DNA from: Spirosoma rigui | GTDB lineage: Bacteria; Bacteroidota; Bacteroidia; Cytophagales; Spirosomataceae | DNA: 64,000 nt | Assembly: GCF_002067135.1 (NCBI RefSeq) | Contig: NZ_CP020105.1 | Location: 4,278,001 to 4,342,000, forward strand | Direction: 5' to 3' | Shown here: positions 31,596 through 40,576 of the stretch, piece by piece | Layout: each line of letters opens with the position of its first letter | Position numbering within the stretch: the stretch's first letter is position 1 | Made by a program: the position numbers and the translations under genes | Notes under the pieces: model-generated | What the model was told of the DNA's origin: nothing | Seen by the model: the letters and a program-made list of their open reading frames with translations, nothing else | Databases searched by the model: none

Positions 31596-32000
31596 ATGTC
31601 CACTTCACCAATCCCCTCTGTATGGATTCTTGACGATGATCATGACGATCTTACGTTTATCCGCCTGGCCTTTCAGGCCAGCCAGCCTTCAATCGATGCC
31701 CTGACGATCAGCAACAGTGATGAGCTGCTGCCCTTGCTTGCTTCCACGAAGGAACGCCCCCGGCTACTTTTGCTCGATATTAATATGCCACGCAAAAATG
31801 GGTTCGAAACCCTCGCTGAACTGCGCAGCCTGCCCGAATACGCCGAGCTTCCCGTCATTATGTTTACCACCTCGTCGAATTCAGTGGATCAGGCCATGTC
31901 GATGGCGTTGGGCGCCAATCAATACCTTACCAAACCCGTTGGCTACAATCAGTTACGGCAATTAGCCCAGAACCTGAGCCAGCAATGGGGACTGACCTGA
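31596..32000 (+). CDS. Single-domain response regulator
   Basis: A 134-residue protein that is entirely a receiver domain. The acidic pair lies in LDDDHDD (residues 13-18), the phospho-acceptor is D61 in LLLDINMPRKNGF, a T/S follows in MFTTSS, and the conserved lysine is in TKPVGY. No output domain is present. Such CheY-like or Spo0F-like proteins act by protein contact or in phosphorelays. A PAS histidine kinase gene lies 135 bp downstream on the same strand and is the obvious candidate partner. Confidence 0.9.
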   Translation: MSTSPIPSVWILDDDHDDLTFIRLAFQASQPSIDALTISNSDELLPLLASTKERPRLLLLDINMPRKNGFETLAELRSLPEYAELPVIMFTTSSNSVDQAMSMALGANQYLTKPVGYNQLRQLAQNLSQQWGLT

Positions 32001-32135
32001 TCCTTTTTGCCGTGACCGACCGTGTATGCTAACGCTTACCAGCTGGAGCCTGGTCGCCATCAACCGATAAATCCTTCCGCTTAACAACTCTACTCGATTC
32101 AGGGTTGGTCTATTGATGCAAGAATAACTGCTCTG

Positions 32136-34565
32136 ATGACCGACCCGATAGATTCTTCTGTAAACGACCGCGCGCTTGAAATCGAGCAACTTCAGTTCGC
32201 CCTGCAGGCTGCCGGCATTGGTACCTGGGATTACAACCTGGTAACGGGTCAGGCAAAATGGTCGGGCATCTGTAAGGAACTCTTCGGACTCCCAACCGAC
32301 GCCGTCATCACGGCAGCTACCCTGCTCGAACAGGTTCATCCTGACGACCGGGCGTGGGTTGGGAAGGCCAATATGCAGGCAATTGACCCACTCAGCGACG
32401 GCAGGCACGACATTGTCTTCCGGATCTGTTTAGCCGACAAACGGATAAGATGGGTTCAGGCTAAAGGAAAAACGTTCAAGAATGATCAGGGCCAGATCAT
32501 CCGGTTCAGTGGCACCGCACAGGATGTTACCCAGACAAAGCTGGCGCAGCAGCAGCTGGAAACGAGCCAGCAACGCTTTCGCAGTCTGATCGAAGAGTCG
32601 CCCGTGGCAACCTGCCTGTTCATGGGGCCAACCCACCAGATCGACATCGCTAACACCGTCATGCTGGGTTACTGGGGCAAGGGCCACGAGGTACTGGGCC
32701 AACCGTTTGCCGGGAGCCTGCCGGAACTCAACCAGCAGACCTTCGGAACGCTGCTTCGTCAGGCATTCGCCACCGGCATTACCCACGAAGAACAGAGCGT
32801 TCCTACCCGGCTGAATCGACACGGGGAATCGCACCTGCACTATTTTGACTTCACGTTCAAGCCCCTGCTGCATGCTTCCGGTGCCGTCTATGCCGTCCTC
32901 AGCATGGCTATTGACGTAACCGAGCGGGTTGAAGACCAGCAGCGCGTTGACCAGATTCAGCGGCAGGTGTTGACCTCTTTTGAACAGTCACCGGTTGGTA
33001 TCGCCATTGTTTCCAGTCCCGACCTAACCTTCCGGATGGTCAATCCGTTCTACGCCGAACTGGTCGGCCGCCCCCCGGGCGAGCTGGTCGGGCAAACCCT
33101 GCAGGATGCCCTGCCCGAACTTCGGGACAAGGGATTTAAGGAACTTCTTGAGCAGGTAGTAACCACCGGTGTGCCTTACATAGCCAGCGAAGTGGCCGTT
33201 GATATCCACCGACGCAACGGTCTGGAAACCATTTACATTGATTTCACGTACCAGCCCTGGCGGGAGGGCAACGAAACGGTTGGCATCCTGGTTGTGGTGG
33301 TCGACGTTACGGAACAGGTTCGGGCCCGCCAGAAGGTGGAAGCGAGTGAAGCCAAACTGCGTTCTATCATTGCCACCGCCCCGGCGGCAATGGGCCTATT
33401 TGTGGGGCGCGATCTGATTGTAGATATGCCCAATCAGGCGTTCATCGATATTGTCGGGAAGGGGCCCGACATTTCCGGTAAGCCACTAAGGGAGGTGATG
33501 CCGGAGCTGGAGAGTCAGCCGTTTTTACAGATTCTGGATGAGGTATTCACCGCGGGACGGATGTTCCAGAGCTTCGGCTCTCAGGTCGATATTGTGCAGC
33601 ACGGCGTCATGAGCCACAACTTTTACAACATCACATACACCCCGCTCCGCGACGAAAGCGGGGCCGTCTTCGCCATACTGGATATTGCCATTGATGTAAC
33701 TGCCGAAGTGAAAACCCGGCAGGCGCTGGAAGCCAGCGAAGCCCGTTTTCGTCAGTTGTCGGCCGATCTGGACAGCCAGGTTCAACTGCGTACCCAGGAA
33801 CTCGAACGGGCCAATGCCGTGCTGGCCGCTACCATTCAGGACTTACAGCGTTCAAATCATAACCTGGAGCAGTTTGCCTATGTAGCCAGCCACGACCTGC
33901 AGGAACCCCTCCGCAAGATCCAGTCGTTCGGAGATTTGCTTAAAAACGAGTACGCCGAACAGCTGGGTACCGGCATCAACTACCTGGAACGGATGCAGGT
34001 GGCCTCCGGGCGCATGTCAACCCTGATTCGTGATCTGCTTCTGTATTCACGCATTTCCACCGGGCGGGATACGAGCCCGCTCATTGCCCTGGATCAGGTG
34101 GTACGGGTGGTGGTCAATGACCTCGAGCTGCTCATTGACGAAGCAGGCGCCCAGCTAGCCATTGGTCCGCTACCCTCCGTAGCGGGCAACTCCTCCCAAC
34201 TGGAGCAGTTGTTTCAAAATTTACTCAGCAACGCGCTTAAATTCAGGAGAGTGGGCTCTCCCGCCTATATACGGGTTCAGTGCGAACAGGTTTTGGCCGA
34301 GCACCTCCCCCCGTTCGTCAAGCCGATACAGCCCGCGATGGCCTATCACCGGATCGACGTGATCGATAACGGGATTGGCTTCGATGAAAAATACGTCGAC
34401 CGTATTTTTCAGATATTCCAGCGCCTGCACGGCAAAAACGAGTACGCCGGTACGGGCATTGGTCTGGCCATCTGCGAGAAGGTCGTTTCCAATCACGGCG
34501 GGGCCATATCAGCCAGCAGCAAACCGGGTCAGGGGGCTACGTTCAGTATCTACCTTCCCGGCTGA
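32136..34565 (+). CDS. Four-PAS cytoplasmic histidine kinase
   Basis: An 809-residue soluble sensor kinase with no transmembrane segment. Four PAS domains lie at about 12-135, 145-265, 275-395 and 405-530, judged from repeats of the S-P-V/A core and closing DVT motifs. A coiled coil runs from about 535 to 575. The DHp domain has the H-box ASHDLQEPLRK near residue 588. The ATPase domain shows the N box NLLSNALKF, DNGIGF and GTGIGLAI. This kinase class often occurs beside CheY-like regulators in Bacteroidota. The signal is unknown; no PAS cofactor-binding residues stand out. It converges with the response regulator at 34576. Confidence 0.92.
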   Translation: MTDPIDSSVNDRALEIEQLQFALQAAGIGTWDYNLVTGQAKWSGICKELFGLPTDAVITAATLLEQVHPDDRAWVGKANMQAIDPLSDGRHDIVFRICLADKRIRWVQAKGKTFKNDQGQIIRFSGTAQDVTQTKLAQQQLETSQQRFRSLIEESPVATCLFMGPTHQIDIANTVMLGYWGKGHEVLGQPFAGSLPELNQQTFGTLLRQAFATGITHEEQSVPTRLNRHGESHLHYFDFTFKPLLHASGAVYAVLSMAIDVTERVEDQQRVDQIQRQVLTSFEQSPVGIAIVSSPDLTFRMVNPFYAELVGRPPGELVGQTLQDALPELRDKGFKELLEQVVTTGVPYIASEVAVDIHRRNGLETIYIDFTYQPWREGNETVGILVVVVDVTEQVRARQKVEASEAKLRSIIATAPAAMGLFVGRDLIVDMPNQAFIDIVGKGPDISGKPLREVMPELESQPFLQILDEVFTAGRMFQSFGSQVDIVQHGVMSHNFYNITYTPLRDESGAVFAILDIAIDVTAEVKTRQALEASEARFRQLSADLDSQVQLRTQELERANAVLAATIQDLQRSNHNLEQFAYVASHDLQEPLRKIQSFGDLLKNEYAEQLGTGINYLERMQVASGRMSTLIRDLLLYSRISTGRDTSPLIALDQVVRVVVNDLELLIDEAGAQLAIGPLPSVAGNSSQLEQLFQNLLSNALKFRRVGSPAYIRVQCEQVLAEHLPPFVKPIQPAMAYHRIDVIDNGIGFDEKYVDRIFQIFQRLHGKNEYAGTGIGLAICEKVVSNHGGAISASSKPGQGATFSIYLPG

Positions 34566-34575
34566 GTGAGCATGC

Positions 34576-34953
34576 TCAGGATAATTCAGGCTGAAGGCTG
34601 GCCATGAGTGAACGAACCATATCGTGCGACAGTGGCTTGGTATGGTAGGCCACTACGTTAGGAAACTCCGCGCACCGCACCCGGTCCAGCTGACTCGTTG
34701 ACGAAGTCAGAATGATAACGCGGTTGGTAAGACCCGAGTCCCGCATTAACTCCAGAAACCCCCACCCGTCGAGGTCCGGCATGTTCAAATCCAGAAACAG
34801 TACGGAGGGATTGATCTGCTTCAACTGCGAGAAGGCCACTACTGGCTCCGTAAAGTCATACACCTTTAGCGGCATGGGTTGTCGCGACAGCACCTTTTTC
34901 ATCATCAGGTTGCAGATCTCACTGTCGTCAACCAGCATTATTGTCGTTTCCAT
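34576..34953 (-). CDS. Single-domain response regulator
   Basis: A 125-residue receiver domain: acidic residues D9-D10, phospho-acceptor D55 in LFLDLNMPDLDGW, a T/S in ILTSSTS, and the conserved lysine in YHTKPLS. There is no output domain. It is the third gene of an apparent operon that runs AhpD-like, GAF-DHp protein, response regulator. The ATG at 34953 was chosen; an in-frame GTG at 34965 would start 3 bp after the upstream stop codon and cannot be excluded. Its likely phospho-donor is either the DHp-only protein, acting as a relay, or the PAS kinase encoded opposite. Confidence 0.88.
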   Translation of the reverse strand: METTIMLVDDSEICNLMMKKVLSRQPMPLKVYDFTEPVVAFSQLKQINPSVLFLDLNMPDLDGWGFLELMRDSGLTNRVIILTSSTSQLDRVRCAEFPNVVAYHTKPLSHDMVRSLMASLQPELS

Positions 34954-34968
34954 ACGTTGCAGCACCTA

Positions 34969-35826
34969 TCAGTCGGTAGAGATTATATCGGTATCAATGG
35001 TTTGGATCACCTGTTGCAGGGCGCGATCCAGATCGTTGGAGGTAGTTACGAGCATGGGCATGATCTCCTCAATAACTTCCTCGGGCGAGAGCGTTTCTAT
35101 CAGGTATGCCAAGCTCAGTATTCTCGACAGCGGCTCACGGATGGTGTGCGCATGCTGCCGGGACAGCTCCAGCAACCGCTTGTTTTTATGCTCCAGTTCC
35201 TGGGTCCGGGTTTGAATCACGGCCTCCTGGGTAGCAACCAGTTGAGCAATCACTTCGTTTTTTTCCTGAAGGCCAAGCAACGCCTGTTCCAGCTCTTTTT
35301 TGTTGTTCCCTAACTCTTCGATCAACCGGATGGACAGGAGCTTGGCGTGGAGATTTTCTATTGCTATCTTCAGAATCGGTACATCGGTGGATTGAAACTG
35401 CCGCTCCTTTCCCGATAAAACGGATACGATCAGGCCCGTATCTGTCGCAAATCCAACGTGCCAGCCCCAGCGCTGGGTAAAAGGGTTCACCGTCTGATCC
35501 ACGAACGGGAACAGGCTACCGGCCAGTTCAACCGGGTCGTCAACGATAGCGGGCAGACTGGTATGCTTCAGGGAGTGCTCATAGGCCAGAAGCAGCTTCT
35601 CGTCCCCACTTTCGACAGTGCAGCGCGAGGGATACAGGGTATAGATGATGTAATGTCCCTGCTGATAGAAACTAAACCGGATCAGTTGAAAGTCGAACAG
35701 GTACTTCATCTGGCTCTGCAAACACTGCTTCACTTGCTCGAGTGTACCCGAGCGGCTTAGTACGCTCGAAAAGCGCGACAAAGCTTCGTAAATGATACGG
35801 TATTTGAACGCCAGTGTGGTAGACAC
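34969..35826 (-). CDS. GAF-like sensor protein ending in a bare DHp domain
   Basis: A 285-residue soluble protein. Residues 1-165 have the alternating strands and helices of a GAF-like sensor domain. A coiled coil runs from about 165 to 220. Residues 222-285 match a histidine-kinase dimerisation domain, with the H-box HTIREPLSRILSL placing the phospho-histidine at H227. The protein stops right after the second DHp helix, with no ATP-binding domain and no room for one before the next gene 3-15 bp downstream. It therefore cannot autophosphorylate by itself. It could act as a histidine phosphotransfer protein, or be phosphorylated by another kinase. It starts 5 bp after the AhpD-like stop codon. 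Confidence 0.75.
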   Translation of the reverse strand: MSTTLAFKYRIIYEALSRFSSVLSRSGTLEQVKQCLQSQMKYLFDFQLIRFSFYQQGHYIIYTLYPSRCTVESGDEKLLLAYEHSLKHTSLPAIVDDPVELAGSLFPFVDQTVNPFTQRWGWHVGFATDTGLIVSVLSGKERQFQSTDVPILKIAIENLHAKLLSIRLIEELGNNKKELEQALLGLQEKNEVIAQLVATQEAVIQTRTQELEHKNKRLLELSRQHAHTIREPLSRILSLAYLIETLSPEEVIEEIMPMLVTTSNDLDRALQQVIQTIDTDIISTD

Positions 35827-35831
35827 AAGTA

Positions 35832-36398
35832 CTAAACGTCTATTTCAAGGAGTTCGTTGTCGATCTTGATCCCTGAGATGTCGGCAATCGTGTTCAACAT
35901 ATTCACCAGAACAGCCTGTGCCATCAGTTCCTGAATCTCGCCCTGGTCAAAACCGGCTTCAGCCAGCTGGTCAAAATCGGCCGCGGTCACCGCCGACGAT
36001 GTCAGGGCTGCCTTCGTAACCACTTTTACCGCCGTCCGGTAGCTCAGTGGAATCAGGTCAGAGTCCAGATTCTGGGTAATGATAAAGTTCTCGCCGAAAG
36101 ATTTGCCCATGGTGTTGGCAAACACAGCATGCGCTTTGGCGCAGTATTCACAACCCCGCTGGGCTGATACGTTATAGATGATCAGCTGCTTGATGATGTT
36201 GGGTACCGAACCCTGAATCAGCGTAGCGTGCAGCTTAGCCCAGTTCCCCTGTAAAAGCAGGGGATTGCCACCCTGGCAGGTAAACCAGTTCAGCACAAAT
36301 GGTAAACCCAGCGCTCGTTTCGTTTCATCGTAGATCTGCCTGACTTCGGGGGATGCTTCTTCGTAGGATACGGCTTTGAATGGGTGACTCTGTTCCAT
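35832..36398 (-). CDS. AhpD-like / carboxymuconolactone decarboxylase family protein
   Basis: A 188-residue all-helical protein of the AhpD/CMD family. It has the motif CEYCAKAH (C83, C86, H90), which matches the redox-active CxxC plus histidine of alkylhydroperoxidase AhpD, so peroxidase or thiol-disulfide activity is more likely than decarboxylation. The start at 36398 (MEQSHPF) was preferred; an earlier in-frame start would add 35 residues with no fold. It is the first gene of the operon with the DHp-only sensor and the response regulator, and it is divergent from the H-NOX gene. A role in nitrosative or peroxide stress is inferred from that context. Confidence 0.78.
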   Translation of the reverse strand: MEQSHPFKAVSYEEASPEVRQIYDETKRALGLPFVLNWFTCQGGNPLLLQGNWAKLHATLIQGSVPNIIKQLIIYNVSAQRGCEYCAKAHAVFANTMGKSFGENFIITQNLDSDLIPLSYRTAVKVVTKAALTSSAVTAADFDQLAEAGFDQGEIQELMAQAVLVNMLNTIADISGIKIDNELLEIDV

Positions 36399-36564
36399 GT
36401 CGTTCGCGTCTTTATCTTTTCTAGTTTTTTTCTGTAGGACAAATAGATCGGTAAAGGGTGATTCTGCCAATGCGGTCAGAGAGTTTTCCGGATCATGGCG
36501 CATGCTGCTGGTGTAAGCAGCGCAACAACGTACCCGCCGTAAGTAACCTGTTCTATTCCAATAT

Positions 36565-36572
36565 CAAATATA
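36565..36572 (-). promoter_or_regulatory. -7 element for the AhpD-like operon
   Basis: On the minus strand this reads TATATTTG, an exact TAnnTTTG match. It predicts a leader of about 160 bases before the ATG at 36398. Confidence 0.4.
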
Positions 36573-36790
36573 TCAACCAAAGCACTCTTATGTAAACTTT
36601 AATAGCAATAATTTATCTTTTCTACCAACCGGGCAAAACTAAAGAATACAATTAATCCCCTTTATTGTCATCTCTTGTTATCACATCTACTCAAATAGCA
36701 GGCTTTTCCCATAAACAGTATATTTTTTCAAAACTATATTCCCTTGTTTATCAGTATAGTACCGATTACTTCCTTTTTTTTCACAAACAA

Positions 36791-36842
36791 AGTGACCAAC
36801 TCATACATCTATACAGGTGACTTTTTGGTAGTTTTGGTCACT
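36791..36842. promoter_or_regulatory. Inverted repeat overlapping the H-NOX promoter
   Basis: AGTGACCAA (36791-36799) and TTGGTCACT (36834-36842) are perfect inverted copies with centres 43 bp apart. The intervening sequence has a related AGGTGACT at 36815-36822. The right arm overlaps the -7 element by three bases. The arrangement suggests a regulator binding two half sites about four helical turns apart, possibly by looping. Confidence 0.5.
36829..36836 (+). promoter_or_regulatory. -7 element for the H-NOX gene
   Basis: TAGTTTTG matches TAnnTTTG exactly and lies 35 bp before the ATG at 36872, giving a leader of about 29 bases. Confidence 0.55.
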
Positions 36843-36871
36843 AACACCCTCCTTTTTCGCGTAACGAGTCA

Positions 36872-37444
36872 ATGAAAGGCATTGTATTCACTCAACTGTT
36901 GGACATGGTTGAGCAGGAGTTCGGCTATGGACTGGTTGATACCCTGCTATTAACGGCAGATCTACCCTCTGGGGGAGCCTACACATCGGCGGGTACCTAC
37001 GCCCCCCACGAAATGGTCAGTCTGGTAACCACACTAAGCGCCCATACCAACAAGCCCGTACCGGAAGTACTGCGGGAATTTGGTCGTTACCTGTTCAAGA
37101 GCTTTGTCTCTACCTACCAGCATTTTATCGTTGCGGCACCCGACGCCTTCTCGTTCCTGAGTTCCGTTCACGCTTATATCCACGTCGAAGTAAAGAAGCT
37201 TTACTCCGACGCGGAGTTGCCGTTTTTTGGTATCGAGCGCTGCGATGAACATACGCTCCGTATGCTCTACCAGTCGAACCGAAAAATGGCTGATCTGGCG
37301 TATGGCCTGATCGAAGGAACGCTGGAGCATTACGGTGAAAAAGCCACCATCACCAAAAACATGATCAAAGCCGACGGCAGCGAGGTGGAGTTCATCATTA
37401 TTAAGCAGTGTCAACGAACCCCGGACCTGCCGTTAGCCACGTAG
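36872..37444 (+). CDS. H-NOX haem nitric-oxide/oxygen-binding protein
   Basis: A 190-residue stand-alone H-NOX sensor. The region IHVEVKKLYSDAELPFF supplies the proximal haem ligand, H104. The haem-propionate motif YxSxR is intact as Y133, S135, R137. The length matches bacterial single-domain H-NOX proteins. In an ungapped comparison with the Thermoanaerobacter protein (H102, Y131, S133, R135), the oxygen-binding distal tyrosine Y140 corresponds to L142 here, which suggests an NO-selective pocket that excludes O2. Family members usually signal through a nearby histidine kinase or cyclase. Here the neighbours are the AhpD-like and DHp-only operon. Its last codons overlap the convergent DUF2071 gene by 12 bp. 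Confidence 0.9.
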   Translation: MKGIVFTQLLDMVEQEFGYGLVDTLLLTADLPSGGAYTSAGTYAPHEMVSLVTTLSAHTNKPVPEVLREFGRYLFKSFVSTYQHFIVAAPDAFSFLSSVHAYIHVEVKKLYSDAELPFFGIERCDEHTLRMLYQSNRKMADLAYGLIEGTLEHYGEKATITKNMIKADGSEVEFIIIKQCQRTPDLPLAT

Positions 37445-38329: not shown

Positions 38330-40576
38330 ATGCTGCTTCAGGACAGGCCGGAACCCTGCCCGGAAATTCGTACCGTTGTGGATCAGACGCTCTTACTCAT
38401 CACACCTCCTTTTACCCAGCTCAACACGCCTTACCCGGCCACTGCCTACCTGAAGGGGTTTCTGCAAACGCTGGGCAAAACGGCTTTCCAGGCCGACCTG
38501 GGGATTGAGGTTATTCTGGCCCTGTTTTCATCGACGGGGCTGGCGTCGATGTTCGCCCAACTCGAAGCGTCCGACGCCGAACTGTCGGACAACAGCTACC
38601 GGATCTGCCGGTTACAGGCCGATTACATCGACACCATCGACCCGGTTATTCGGTTTTTGCAGAATAAAAACCCGACCCTTGCCCATAGCATCTGCGACCG
38701 GACTTACCTGCCTGAAGCGTCGCGTTTTGCGCAACTGGAAGAGCTGGACTGGGCATTCGGCACGATGGGTATTCACGACAAGGCCCGCCACCTGGCGACG
38801 CTCTACCTGGAAGATCTGAGTGACCTGATCCAGGAAGCTGTCGATCCGCATTTTGGCTTCAGCCGCTACGCCGAACGACTGGGTCGCTCGGCTACACACT
38901 TCGATGAGCTGCACACGGCCCTACAAGCCCCTTATACCCAGGTATCGTCGCTGCTGATCGAGTTGCTGGAGCGCCGGATTCAACAGTGGCAACCCGACGT
39001 TATTTGTCTGACAGTGCCTTTCCCCGGCAACCTCTACGGCGCGCTCACCTGTGGCAAATACATCAGGCAGCACCACCCTGCTATCAAGATCGTCATGGGC
39101 GGTGGCTATGCCAATACCGAACTGCGGTCGCTGTCGGAACCGCGTGTGTTCGATTATGTCGATTTCATCTGCCTCGACGATGGCGAAGCCCCGCTCCTGA
39201 CCCTGCTCGACCATTTGGCGGGCCAGCGGGAGATCAGCCAGCTGAAACGCGTTTACGCCCGCGTCGATGGCGTTGTCACCTATTTCAATGGAGCGCGCGA
39301 AAAGGATATTCCCCAGCGCGAAACCGGTACACCCAACTACCGCGACCTGCTGCTGCACGACTACCTATCCGTCATTGAGGTCGTGAACCCCATGCACCGG
39401 CTGTGGAGCGATGGCCGCTGGAACAAGCTCACGCTGGCGCACGGCTGCTACTGGGGCAAATGCTCGTTCTGTGATGTAACCCTCGACTACATCAAACGCT
39501 ACGAACCCGTCACCGCTTCGCTCCTCTGCGACCGTATCGAGGAGATAATCGACCAAACCGGACAGACGGGGTTTCATTTCGTTGATGAAGCCGCTCCCCC
39601 TGCGCTGATGCGCGACCTGGCGCTGGAAATCGTTCGCCGGAAACTGACCGTAACCTGGTGGACCAATATCCGGTTCGAATCCAGCTTTACACCCGACTTG
39701 TGTACCTTGCTGAAAGCATCAGGCTGCATTGCCGTATCGGGTGGACTGGAAGTAGCCTCCGACCGGCTGCTGGAACGCATGAAAAAAGGGGTTACGGTAG
39801 CGCAGGTGGCCCGCGTCGCCGACGCGTTCACGCAGGCGGGCATTATGGTGCATGCCTACCTGATGTACGGCTTTCCAACCCAGACGATGCAGGAAACGGT
39901 CGACTCGCTGGAAATGGTACGTCAGCTGTTCCAGACCGGCATTGTTCAGTCGGGGTTTTGGCACCGCTTCGCCATGACTGCCCACAGTCCGGTGGGTGTC
40001 GATCCGGCCGGGTTCGATGTGCTGCGAATTGGCCCTAGTTTCGGCGGTTTTGCTGATAATGACCTCGACCATGCCGACCCGTCCGGTGCCGACCACGATC
40101 TGTTTGCCGAGGGACTTCGGAAGTCGCTGTTCAACTACATGCACGATGTAGGATTTGACCTGCCGCTGCAGGAATGGTTTTCGTTTCCCCTACCCATTAC
40201 ATCCATCCCGCCCCGCTATATCGAGAAAGCCATCCGTCAGCGCACCGATAAAGACCCGCGACCGAATGCGCTTGTGGTCTGGCCGGGTAAGCTACCCAGC
40301 CTGGAAGTGTTCGAGTTACAGCAGGGTCGTAAACTTATTGAGATGGCCGAACTGGAATTTTACGGCAAACAGGACCAGTGGCTACTCGAAGCTACGGTAC
40401 CCGTGGGCGAATGGCTGATGGATACGCTACCTGCCCTGACCATCGGGCCGCACGAGCCTTACTCGCTAGCGCAGCTCAAAGCCAGCTATGAAACAGCCGG
40501 ACTGGGGCGTTTTGATGCGTTCACGCAGTCGCCCGTTTGGACCCAGCTCCGCGAACACGGCTTATTGATCGTGTAA
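38330..40576 (+). CDS. B12-binding-type radical SAM protein with CX4CX2C motif
   Basis: A 748-residue protein. Residues about 20-330 resemble a cobalamin-binding-type N-terminal domain (LLLITPPFTQLNTPYP, later VICLTVPFPGNLYGA and KIVMGGGYANTELR), as in BchE- and YgiQ-like enzymes. The radical SAM barrel starts near residue 365. The cluster cysteines are C373, C378 and C381 (GCYWGKCSFCD), that is CX4CX2C instead of the usual CX3CX2C. Later landmarks include VSGGLEVASDRLLERMKKG and MYGFPTQT. The C-terminal 150 residues are not recognised. The substrate is unknown and the neighbours give no clue. The gene is followed closely by a TetR gene. Confidence 0.85.
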   Translation: MLLQDRPEPCPEIRTVVDQTLLLITPPFTQLNTPYPATAYLKGFLQTLGKTAFQADLGIEVILALFSSTGLASMFAQLEASDAELSDNSYRICRLQADYIDTIDPVIRFLQNKNPTLAHSICDRTYLPEASRFAQLEELDWAFGTMGIHDKARHLATLYLEDLSDLIQEAVDPHFGFSRYAERLGRSATHFDELHTALQAPYTQVSSLLIELLERRIQQWQPDVICLTVPFPGNLYGALTCGKYIRQHHPAIKIVMGGGYANTELRSLSEPRVFDYVDFICLDDGEAPLLTLLDHLAGQREISQLKRVYARVDGVVTYFNGAREKDIPQRETGTPNYRDLLLHDYLSVIEVVNPMHRLWSDGRWNKLTLAHGCYWGKCSFCDVTLDYIKRYEPVTASLLCDRIEEIIDQTGQTGFHFVDEAAPPALMRDLALEIVRRKLTVTWWTNIRFESSFTPDLCTLLKASGCIAVSGGLEVASDRLLERMKKGVTVAQVARVADAFTQAGIMVHAYLMYGFPTQTMQETVDSLEMVRQLFQTGIVQSGFWHRFAMTAHSPVGVDPAGFDVLRIGPSFGGFADNDLDHADPSGADHDLFAEGLRKSLFNYMHDVGFDLPLQEWFSFPLPITSIPPRYIEKAIRQRTDKDPRPNALVVWPGKLPSLEVFELQQGRKLIEMAELEFYGKQDQWLLEATVPVGEWLMDTLPALTIGPHEPYSLAQLKASYETAGLGRFDAFTQSPVWTQLREHGLLIV

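Follow-up and report, generated by a model that had tools for sequence, protein, structure and literature searches.

We describe here a conserved three-gene operon of Spirosoma rigui that encodes an AhpD-like protein, a protein with the sensor and dimerization and histidine phosphotransfer (DHp) parts of a histidine kinase but no catalytic and ATP-binding (CA) domain, here referred to as GAF-DHp, and a stand-alone receiver. The operon lies in a 64,000-nucleotide stretch, referred to below as the window (contig NZ_CP020105.1, positions 4,278,001 to 4,342,000), of a 5.83-Mb chromosome. From gene context and conserved residues, we consider it about evenly poised whether these three genes form the functional unit, with GAF-DHp acting as a phosphotransfer protein and the AhpD-like protein as its input. 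A preliminary description had combined the three genes with a further receiver, a four-PAS histidine kinase and an H-NOX haem sensor into a nitric oxide (NO)/redox signalling locus. Pfam and NCBIfam domain searches and the open reading frame list bear out that all six genes are present as described. The three operon genes, in order of transcription and in window coordinates, are as follows.

35832..36398, minus strand: AhpD-like protein of the carboxymuconolactone decarboxylase (CMD) family, 188 amino acids, first operon gene; Q71 at 36186-36188, C83 at 36150-36152, C86 at 36141-36143, H90 at 36129-36131
34969..35826, minus strand: protein of 285 amino acids with a predicted GAF domain, a coiled coil and a DHp domain, without CA domain; phosphoacceptor H227 at 35146-35148, E231 (H+4) at 35134-35136
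34576..34953, minus strand: stand-alone receiver, third operon gene; Response_reg 1.8e-13; D9, D10, D55 (34789-34791) and K106

Two of these gene models differ from the preliminary ones. The AhpD-like frame had been read as 35832-36503, and this frame matches CMD/AhpD (8.2e-07) and peroxid_rel (1.8e-13, under its curated cut-off). It was most likely over-extended, with the true start at Met36, because close relatives align only from that residue. Judged from the alignment, the receiver most likely starts at 34953 and not at 34965.

Conservation of the operon

Conservation was assessed in samples of 36 genomes of the same genus, 200 of the family, 390 of the order and 395 of the phylum. Within the genus, the DHp protein had four matches, and close AhpD matches (at least 79%) were present in the same four genomes. 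Within the family, the DHp protein was found at full length in five genomes (any match at 1e-3 in 41), the five AhpD-like matches at 1e-10 came from these same five genomes, and the order AhpD-DHp-receiver holds in all five, that is, in the window and four relatives. Three genomes of the phylum sample match the AhpD profile at 1e-20, namely, G000 and G299, which carry the operon, and G695.

For a wider survey, 84,980 species genomes were scanned with the AhpD alignment via two conserved peptides, which yielded a named set of 68 loci, nearly all from Bacteroidota. A DHp-family gene lies directly downstream of the AhpD-like gene in 67 of these loci, the exception (L175) being cut by a contig end. 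Fifty-five of the 67 downstream genes are kinase-less (the short form), and 54 of them are followed by the receiver gene; the remaining locus, L136, is again cut by a contig end, and L177 has a frameshift in its DHp gene with the receiver still next. The other 12 downstream genes encode full kinases (the long form), none of which is succeeded by a receiver gene, and come from Mucilaginibacter, Daejeonella, Thermoflexibacter, Cesiribacter and metagenome-assembled genomes (MAGs). The two forms have no genus label in common, and in a tree of the AhpD-like proteins, which omits L175 and L177, they fall on two sides of one branch with support of 100/100. Two loci come from MAGs labelled Puniceicoccaceae (L164, short form) and Thalassovita (L163, long form), which may reflect misbinning or transfer.

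An independent route made no use of the AhpD sequence. A DHp profile was searched in the 390 genomes of the order; apart from the window, 17 loci matched over most of the length, and at least two of these also belong to the named set. The AhpD-like gene is upstream in all 17, the receiver gene is next in 14 of the 14 kinase-less loci (split over two frames in one), and no receiver was found within about 1 kb of the three full kinases. As a control, 10 other AhpD-like paralogues were inspected, and none had a DHp-family gene in such a position; one had a weak, divergently oriented kinase match. The AhpD-to-DHp spacing was measurable by the rule used in 25 loci only. Across the 68 named loci, other recurring neighbours were common to no more than five genus labels, mostly related Flavobacteriia.

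Taken together, these comparisons indicate that the AhpD-like, DHp-only and receiver genes are a conserved operon with a patchy distribution in scattered relatives, as the preliminary description had anticipated. It had also noted that it knew of no described system with this gene set; in agreement with this, our literature search, in which most subscription papers were out of reach, found no description of the conserved trio.

The GAF-DHp protein and its full-kinase counterpart

Searched on its own, the DHp-only protein gave no informative Pfam match. Among 54 aligned short sequences (the window protein and 53 of the 55 short loci, L136 and L177 being omitted), 44 matched HisKA and none matched HATPase_c at an E value of 0.01, a domain that was found in all 12 long forms. 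Held against the features of a HisKA kinase, the protein has the DHp helix pair and the phosphoacceptor His and lacks the CA (HATPase_c) domain. An AlphaFold2 model built from the 54-row alignment (mean predicted local distance difference score [pLDDT] of 86; predicted template modelling score [pTM] of 0.60) consists of an alpha/beta domain (residues 1-145), a long helix (146-243) and a second helix (248-284), with nothing further. The best Foldseek matches of this model in the PDB were mostly GAF proteins (probability of 1.00; E values of 1.5e-05 to 1e-03; TM-score normalised by query length of at most 0.48), and among the long forms, Pfam GAF_2 was detected in three and GAF in one of 12, with neither detected in the 54 short forms. 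The N-terminal part is thus predicted to have a GAF fold. When the profiles of the two forms were compared, 257 columns aligned with an E value of 1.5e-37, the short form covering columns 6-266 of the long form, including the GAF region, the coiled coil and the DHp domain. By profile alignment, the homology of GAF-DHp to the full kinase that stands at the equivalent position in a sister group of loci therefore spans almost all of GAF-DHp and covers the sensor and DHp regions of the kinase.

The phosphoacceptor His is kept in all 54 short and all 12 long forms, and the residues that follow it differ between the two. Position H+1 is Asp in every long form; in the short forms it is N in 35, D in 5, T in 4, S in 3, I in 2, Q in 2, and H, E and G in 1 each. 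All 54 short forms have Glu at H+4 and Pro at H+5, and the long forms have A (6), R (5) or G (1) at H+4. According to the accessible text of PMC3510030, the HisKA kinases tested there need an acid at H+1 for kinase activity and Thr or Asn at H+4 for phosphatase activity. By these marks, the short form has no CA domain and a relaxed kinase residue and retains the phosphoacceptor, with the phosphatase residue absent as it is in the long form.

Conserved residues of the AhpD-like protein and the receiver

The CxxC-X3-H motif of the AhpD-like protein is present in all 68 named loci and all 17 DHp-profile loci, and the latter all have the fuller pattern Gln-X11-CxYC-X3-His. The window protein likewise carries Gln instead of Glu at the proton-relay position, 12 residues before the first Cys, where the three PDB relatives shown (2ouw, 2oyo and 2prr) have Glu. 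This Glu is part of the proton relay in Mycobacterium tuberculosis AhpD and PA0269, and the C-x-Y-C form is that of the weakly active PA0269, as described in the accessible part of PMC3141380. We rest the Gln count on the 17 DHp-profile loci, one of the two search peptides of the named set itself including the Gln. In the receiver, the acidic pair, the phosphoacceptor Asp and the Lys are kept in 54 of 54 named loci.

Proposed mechanism and alternatives

We infer the following sequence of events. A full kinase would have lost its CA domain, a loss and not a gain, and become a GAF-regulated phosphotransfer protein whose conserved His (H227 in the window) would exchange phosphoryl groups with the operon receiver. 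Phosphate would enter from another kinase through this receiver, by analogy to the Pak-SdrG-PhyT-PhyR relay of Sphingomonas, and the AhpD-like protein may be the input partner, its thiol redox state or a bound ligand acting on the GAF domain, and so no ordinary peroxidase. More tentatively, and on balance with slightly less confidence than doubt, we suggest that a single CA loss, the gain of a receiver within the operon and a dedicated AhpD-family partner with a rebuilt active site together make up an AhpD-coupled phosphorelay across scattered Bacteroidota.

Several points weigh against this reading. The phosphodonor is a postulated separate kinase to which no particular gene is assigned, and the CA loss rests on parsimony only, because the AhpD tree is unrooted. 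The long form also has no Thr or Asn at H+4, so that such a loss is no marker of the short form. Under a relaxed receiver model, three full-kinase loci do show a receiver-like frame: in L169 it lies about 0.7 kb upstream on the opposite strand, and in L158 and L159 it is distant, with none in the other nine. The operon is also uncommon, being found in 2 of the 395 genomes sampled from the phylum, and the named-set scan samples only AhpD-like genes that hold either of the two search peptides. The Gln seen in 68 of 68 named loci is for the same reason not independent, since 67 of them carry the peptide that contains it. Nor is Gln proof of lost activity, because an Agrobacterium AhpD in which His replaces Glu is thought able to work, as stated in the portion of PMC3141380 available to us.

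The alternative that survives best, unlikely as we consider it, is a split kinase, in which the CA domain of another protein, in a hetero-oligomer or as a CA-only partner, phosphorylates the DHp domain in trans, and this in turn feeds the receiver in the normal direction. A split DHp/CA pair is known from mycobacteria, the His and the receiver are intact in 54 of 54 loci, and the 77 HATPase_c matches of the window genome offer many possible donors. However, just 6 of the 54 short forms (5 D and 1 E) retain the H+1 acid that the tested HisKA kinases need (PMC3510030, accessible text), and no conserved CA-only gene was found among the neighbours of the 68 loci. The only HATPase_c frame shorter than 200 amino acids in the window genome has 163 and is probably of the RsbW/RsbT type, because it lies among genes for STAS, RsbRD-like and SpoIIE-phosphatase proteins, and we rejected it as a dedicated CA-only partner. 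A CA domain hidden by a frameshift was likewise rejected for 53 short loci, in which the gap between the DHp gene and the receiver start is -4 to +44 nt (nearest-Met rule). As an observation in its own right, this run of STAS, RsbRD-like, HATPase_c and SpoIIE genes (L210, positions 361500-364500 of the window genome) resembles an Rsb-type stress module.

Appreciably less probable is a scaffold role, in which GAF-DHp would bind and sequester the receiver without phosphotransfer and the His would be structural. The absence of both a kinase domain and the phosphatase Thr or Asn from the short form would agree with this, as would a receiver gene next in 54 of 55 kinase-less loci, but neither the phosphoacceptor His nor the receiver Asp and Lys, each kept in 54 of 54, would then need to be conserved. 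We give marginally less credit still to the idea that the AhpD-like protein is active as a thiol peroxidase or reductase and that the two signalling proteins regulate its expression or activity. Its catalytic CxxC and His are kept in 17 of 17 DHp-profile and 68 of 68 named loci in the C-x-Y-C form of the weakly active PA0269 (PMC3141380, as far as accessible); against this, the proton-relay Glu is replaced by Gln in 17 of 17, and its constant association with a GAF protein is more in keeping with a sensor partner.

H-NOX and the other neighbouring genes

The remaining features of the locus lie outside the conserved operon.

31596..32000, plus strand: stand-alone receiver upstream of the four-PAS kinase; Pfam Response_reg 5.7e-19
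32136..34565, plus strand: four-PAS histidine kinase, convergent neighbour; HisKA and HATPase_c
36399..36871: divergent intergenic region of 473 bp, with the inverted repeat AGTGACCAA / TTGGTCACT at 36791-36842
36872..37444, plus strand: H-NOX of the orphan clade, divergent neighbour; HNOB 5.8e-39

The four PAS regions of the kinase were recognised by Pfam as one PAS_3 and three stretches of PAS_4, and by TIGR00229 in four stretches. The window H-NOX has an HNOB domain with the proximal H104, the YxSxR motif as Y133QSNR and a Leu five residues after the motif Arg, which we take to be the position of the distal O2-binding Tyr; these residues agree in full with the preliminary description. In PMC8738867, as far as its text is accessible, the distal Tyr has a role in O2 binding by H-NOX. 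With no Tyr at this place, as in the NO-selective class, NO selectivity of the window protein is a fair inference.

The H-NOX gene adjoins the operon in two of the five operon-bearing family genomes, the window and Spirosoma utsteinense (G034, locus L112), whose copy is broken into two frames; in the other three it lies elsewhere in the genome. Among the 68 named loci, it stands beside the operon in one, L112, from that same S. utsteinense genome. No counterpart of the four-PAS kinase or the first receiver was found beside the operon in the four relatives. At the level of the order, with both 390-genome draws taken as identical (same handles and count), H-NOX occurs together with the kinase-less operon in 11 of 15 genomes versus 125 of 375 in the background (Fisher p = 0.004; p = 0.0009 with the 14 operon genomes other than G299), or in 11 of 18 when three full-kinase genomes are added (p = 0.02). 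At the genus level, the figures are 3 of 6 versus 44 of 124 (p = 0.67; 3 of 9 and p = 1.0 with the full-kinase loci), and within the genus they are 4 of 4 versus 16 of 32 (p = 0.11). Relatedness can explain the co-occurrence, because it is significant neither at the genus level nor within the genus. No H-NOX match was found in the operon-bearing genomes G364, G449, G478 and G299.

PF07700 is present in 20 of the 36 genomes of the genus. In each of the 20 primary H-NOX loci of the genus, the H-NOX frame directly adjoins a HisKA-motif frame of the same strand. Five further copies, spread over six loci, are orphans; they form one clade with support of 100/99 in a tree for which the bootstrap had not converged. 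No kinase-like motif was found within about 1.5 kb of any of the five orphan copies, where cyclases were not looked for. The window H-NOX accordingly has no adjacent cognate kinase of the kind seen in H-NOX/kinase operons, and the four-PAS kinase is farther away than this distance and not conserved in position. The residue at Arg+5 was readable in 17 of the 20 primary copies, all with Phe, and in three of the five orphan copies, all with Leu. The window genome has one H-NOX of each type, the primary copy, at genome position 4537732, standing beside a 959-residue PAS hybrid kinase frame. Stop codons or changes of frame interrupt two of the five orphan copies (L112, 6135-6543; L024, L025); one belongs to S. 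utsteinense (G034) and the other to Spirosoma sordidisoli (G020), a genome with three H-NOX matches.

A perfect 9-nt inverted repeat, AGTGACCAA / TTGGTCACT, with 34 nt between its arms, lies shortly before the H-NOX start and is a possible operator. Regulatory DNA shared with S. utsteinense was considered and rejected, as the repeat falls in an alignment gap. These data suggest that the window H-NOX is a stand-alone paralogue and an occasional neighbour of the operon, to which any functional link is putative. An NO signalling locus, in which the adjacent GAF-DHp and receiver proteins would be controlled by H-NOX upon its binding of NO, has in its favour an intact H-NOX, a divergent intergenic region, the equal arrangement in S. 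utsteinense and the genome-level co-occurrence, but we regard it as highly improbable in view of an adjacency that recurs once among the 68 named loci and in two of five family genomes with one of the two genes broken, the broken orphan copies, the lack of significance at the genus level and the four operon genomes in which no H-NOX match was found.

Of the six-gene locus of the preliminary description, then, the genes are real and the AhpD-like/DHp-only/receiver trio stands, and the linkage of H-NOX, the four-PAS kinase and the first receiver to it falls away, since they do not travel with the operon. Its proposal of a locus built around H-NOX is not upheld; it had named conserved co-location in related genomes as the check and its absence as refuting, and co-location of H-NOX was not conserved.

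Two neighbouring genes are recorded here. The 3' end of a DUF2071 gene overlaps that of H-NOX, and a gene for a B12-binding radical SAM protein not assigned to a subfamily (window 38330-40576) adjoins; its best NCBIfam match is PhpK-like (2.2e-28, far under the cut-off). In the phylum-sample genome G695 (L209, 264-2058), a CxxC-less AhpD-like gene directly precedes a gene for a GAF class III nucleotide cyclase (Guanylate_cyc, 4e-49). A general AhpD-like/GAF-cyclase pairing was rejected: this is one case, frame reading revealed no cyclase after the four homologues retrieved from the same family, and a BLASTP comparison of the cyclase with one long-form kinase gave no match.

Implications and comparison with known systems

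In like neighbourhoods, the operon presents one signalling protein in two states, as a full kinase that has no receiver and as a kinase-less form that has one, and because the two forms occupy equivalent gene neighbourhoods, the proposed step from kinase to phosphotransfer protein is directly testable. The operon also suggests that an AhpD-family protein may serve in signal input and not as a peroxidase, and the history of this locus illustrates how a conspicuous neighbour such as H-NOX can mislead annotation by proximity.

Spo0B and ChpT are DHp-type histidine phosphotransferases that work without autokinase activity, as we propose for GAF-DHp; unlike it, they keep a degenerate CA-like domain and are not known to have a GAF domain or an AhpD partner. 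The architecture of GAF-DHp fits that of phosphotransferases of the PhyT, Spo0B and ChpT type. By analogy, the nearest described design that we found is the Pak-SdrG-PhyT-PhyR relay of Sphingomonas, in which, according to the accessible part of PMC5898713, a single-domain receiver feeds a phosphotransferase. PhyT and SdrG resemble the operon in that a single-domain receiver is combined with a protein that hands phosphate on through a conserved His and in that separate kinases supply the phosphate; however, PhyT is membrane bound, and no AhpD-like partner is mentioned in that part of the paper. With the AhpD/CMD family (PA0269, in the accessible text of PMC3141380; PDB entries 2ouw, 2oyo and 2prr), the operon protein shares homology and the CxxC-X3-H motif and differs in having Gln for Glu and a fixed linkage to a histidine-kinase-derived gene. 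Finally, like the H-NOX/histidine kinase pairs described in the accessible part of PMC8738867, the 20 primary Spirosoma H-NOX loci, the second copy of the window genome among them, adjoin a HisKA-motif frame, whereas the window H-NOX falls apart from these in the orphan clade and has no kinase neighbour.

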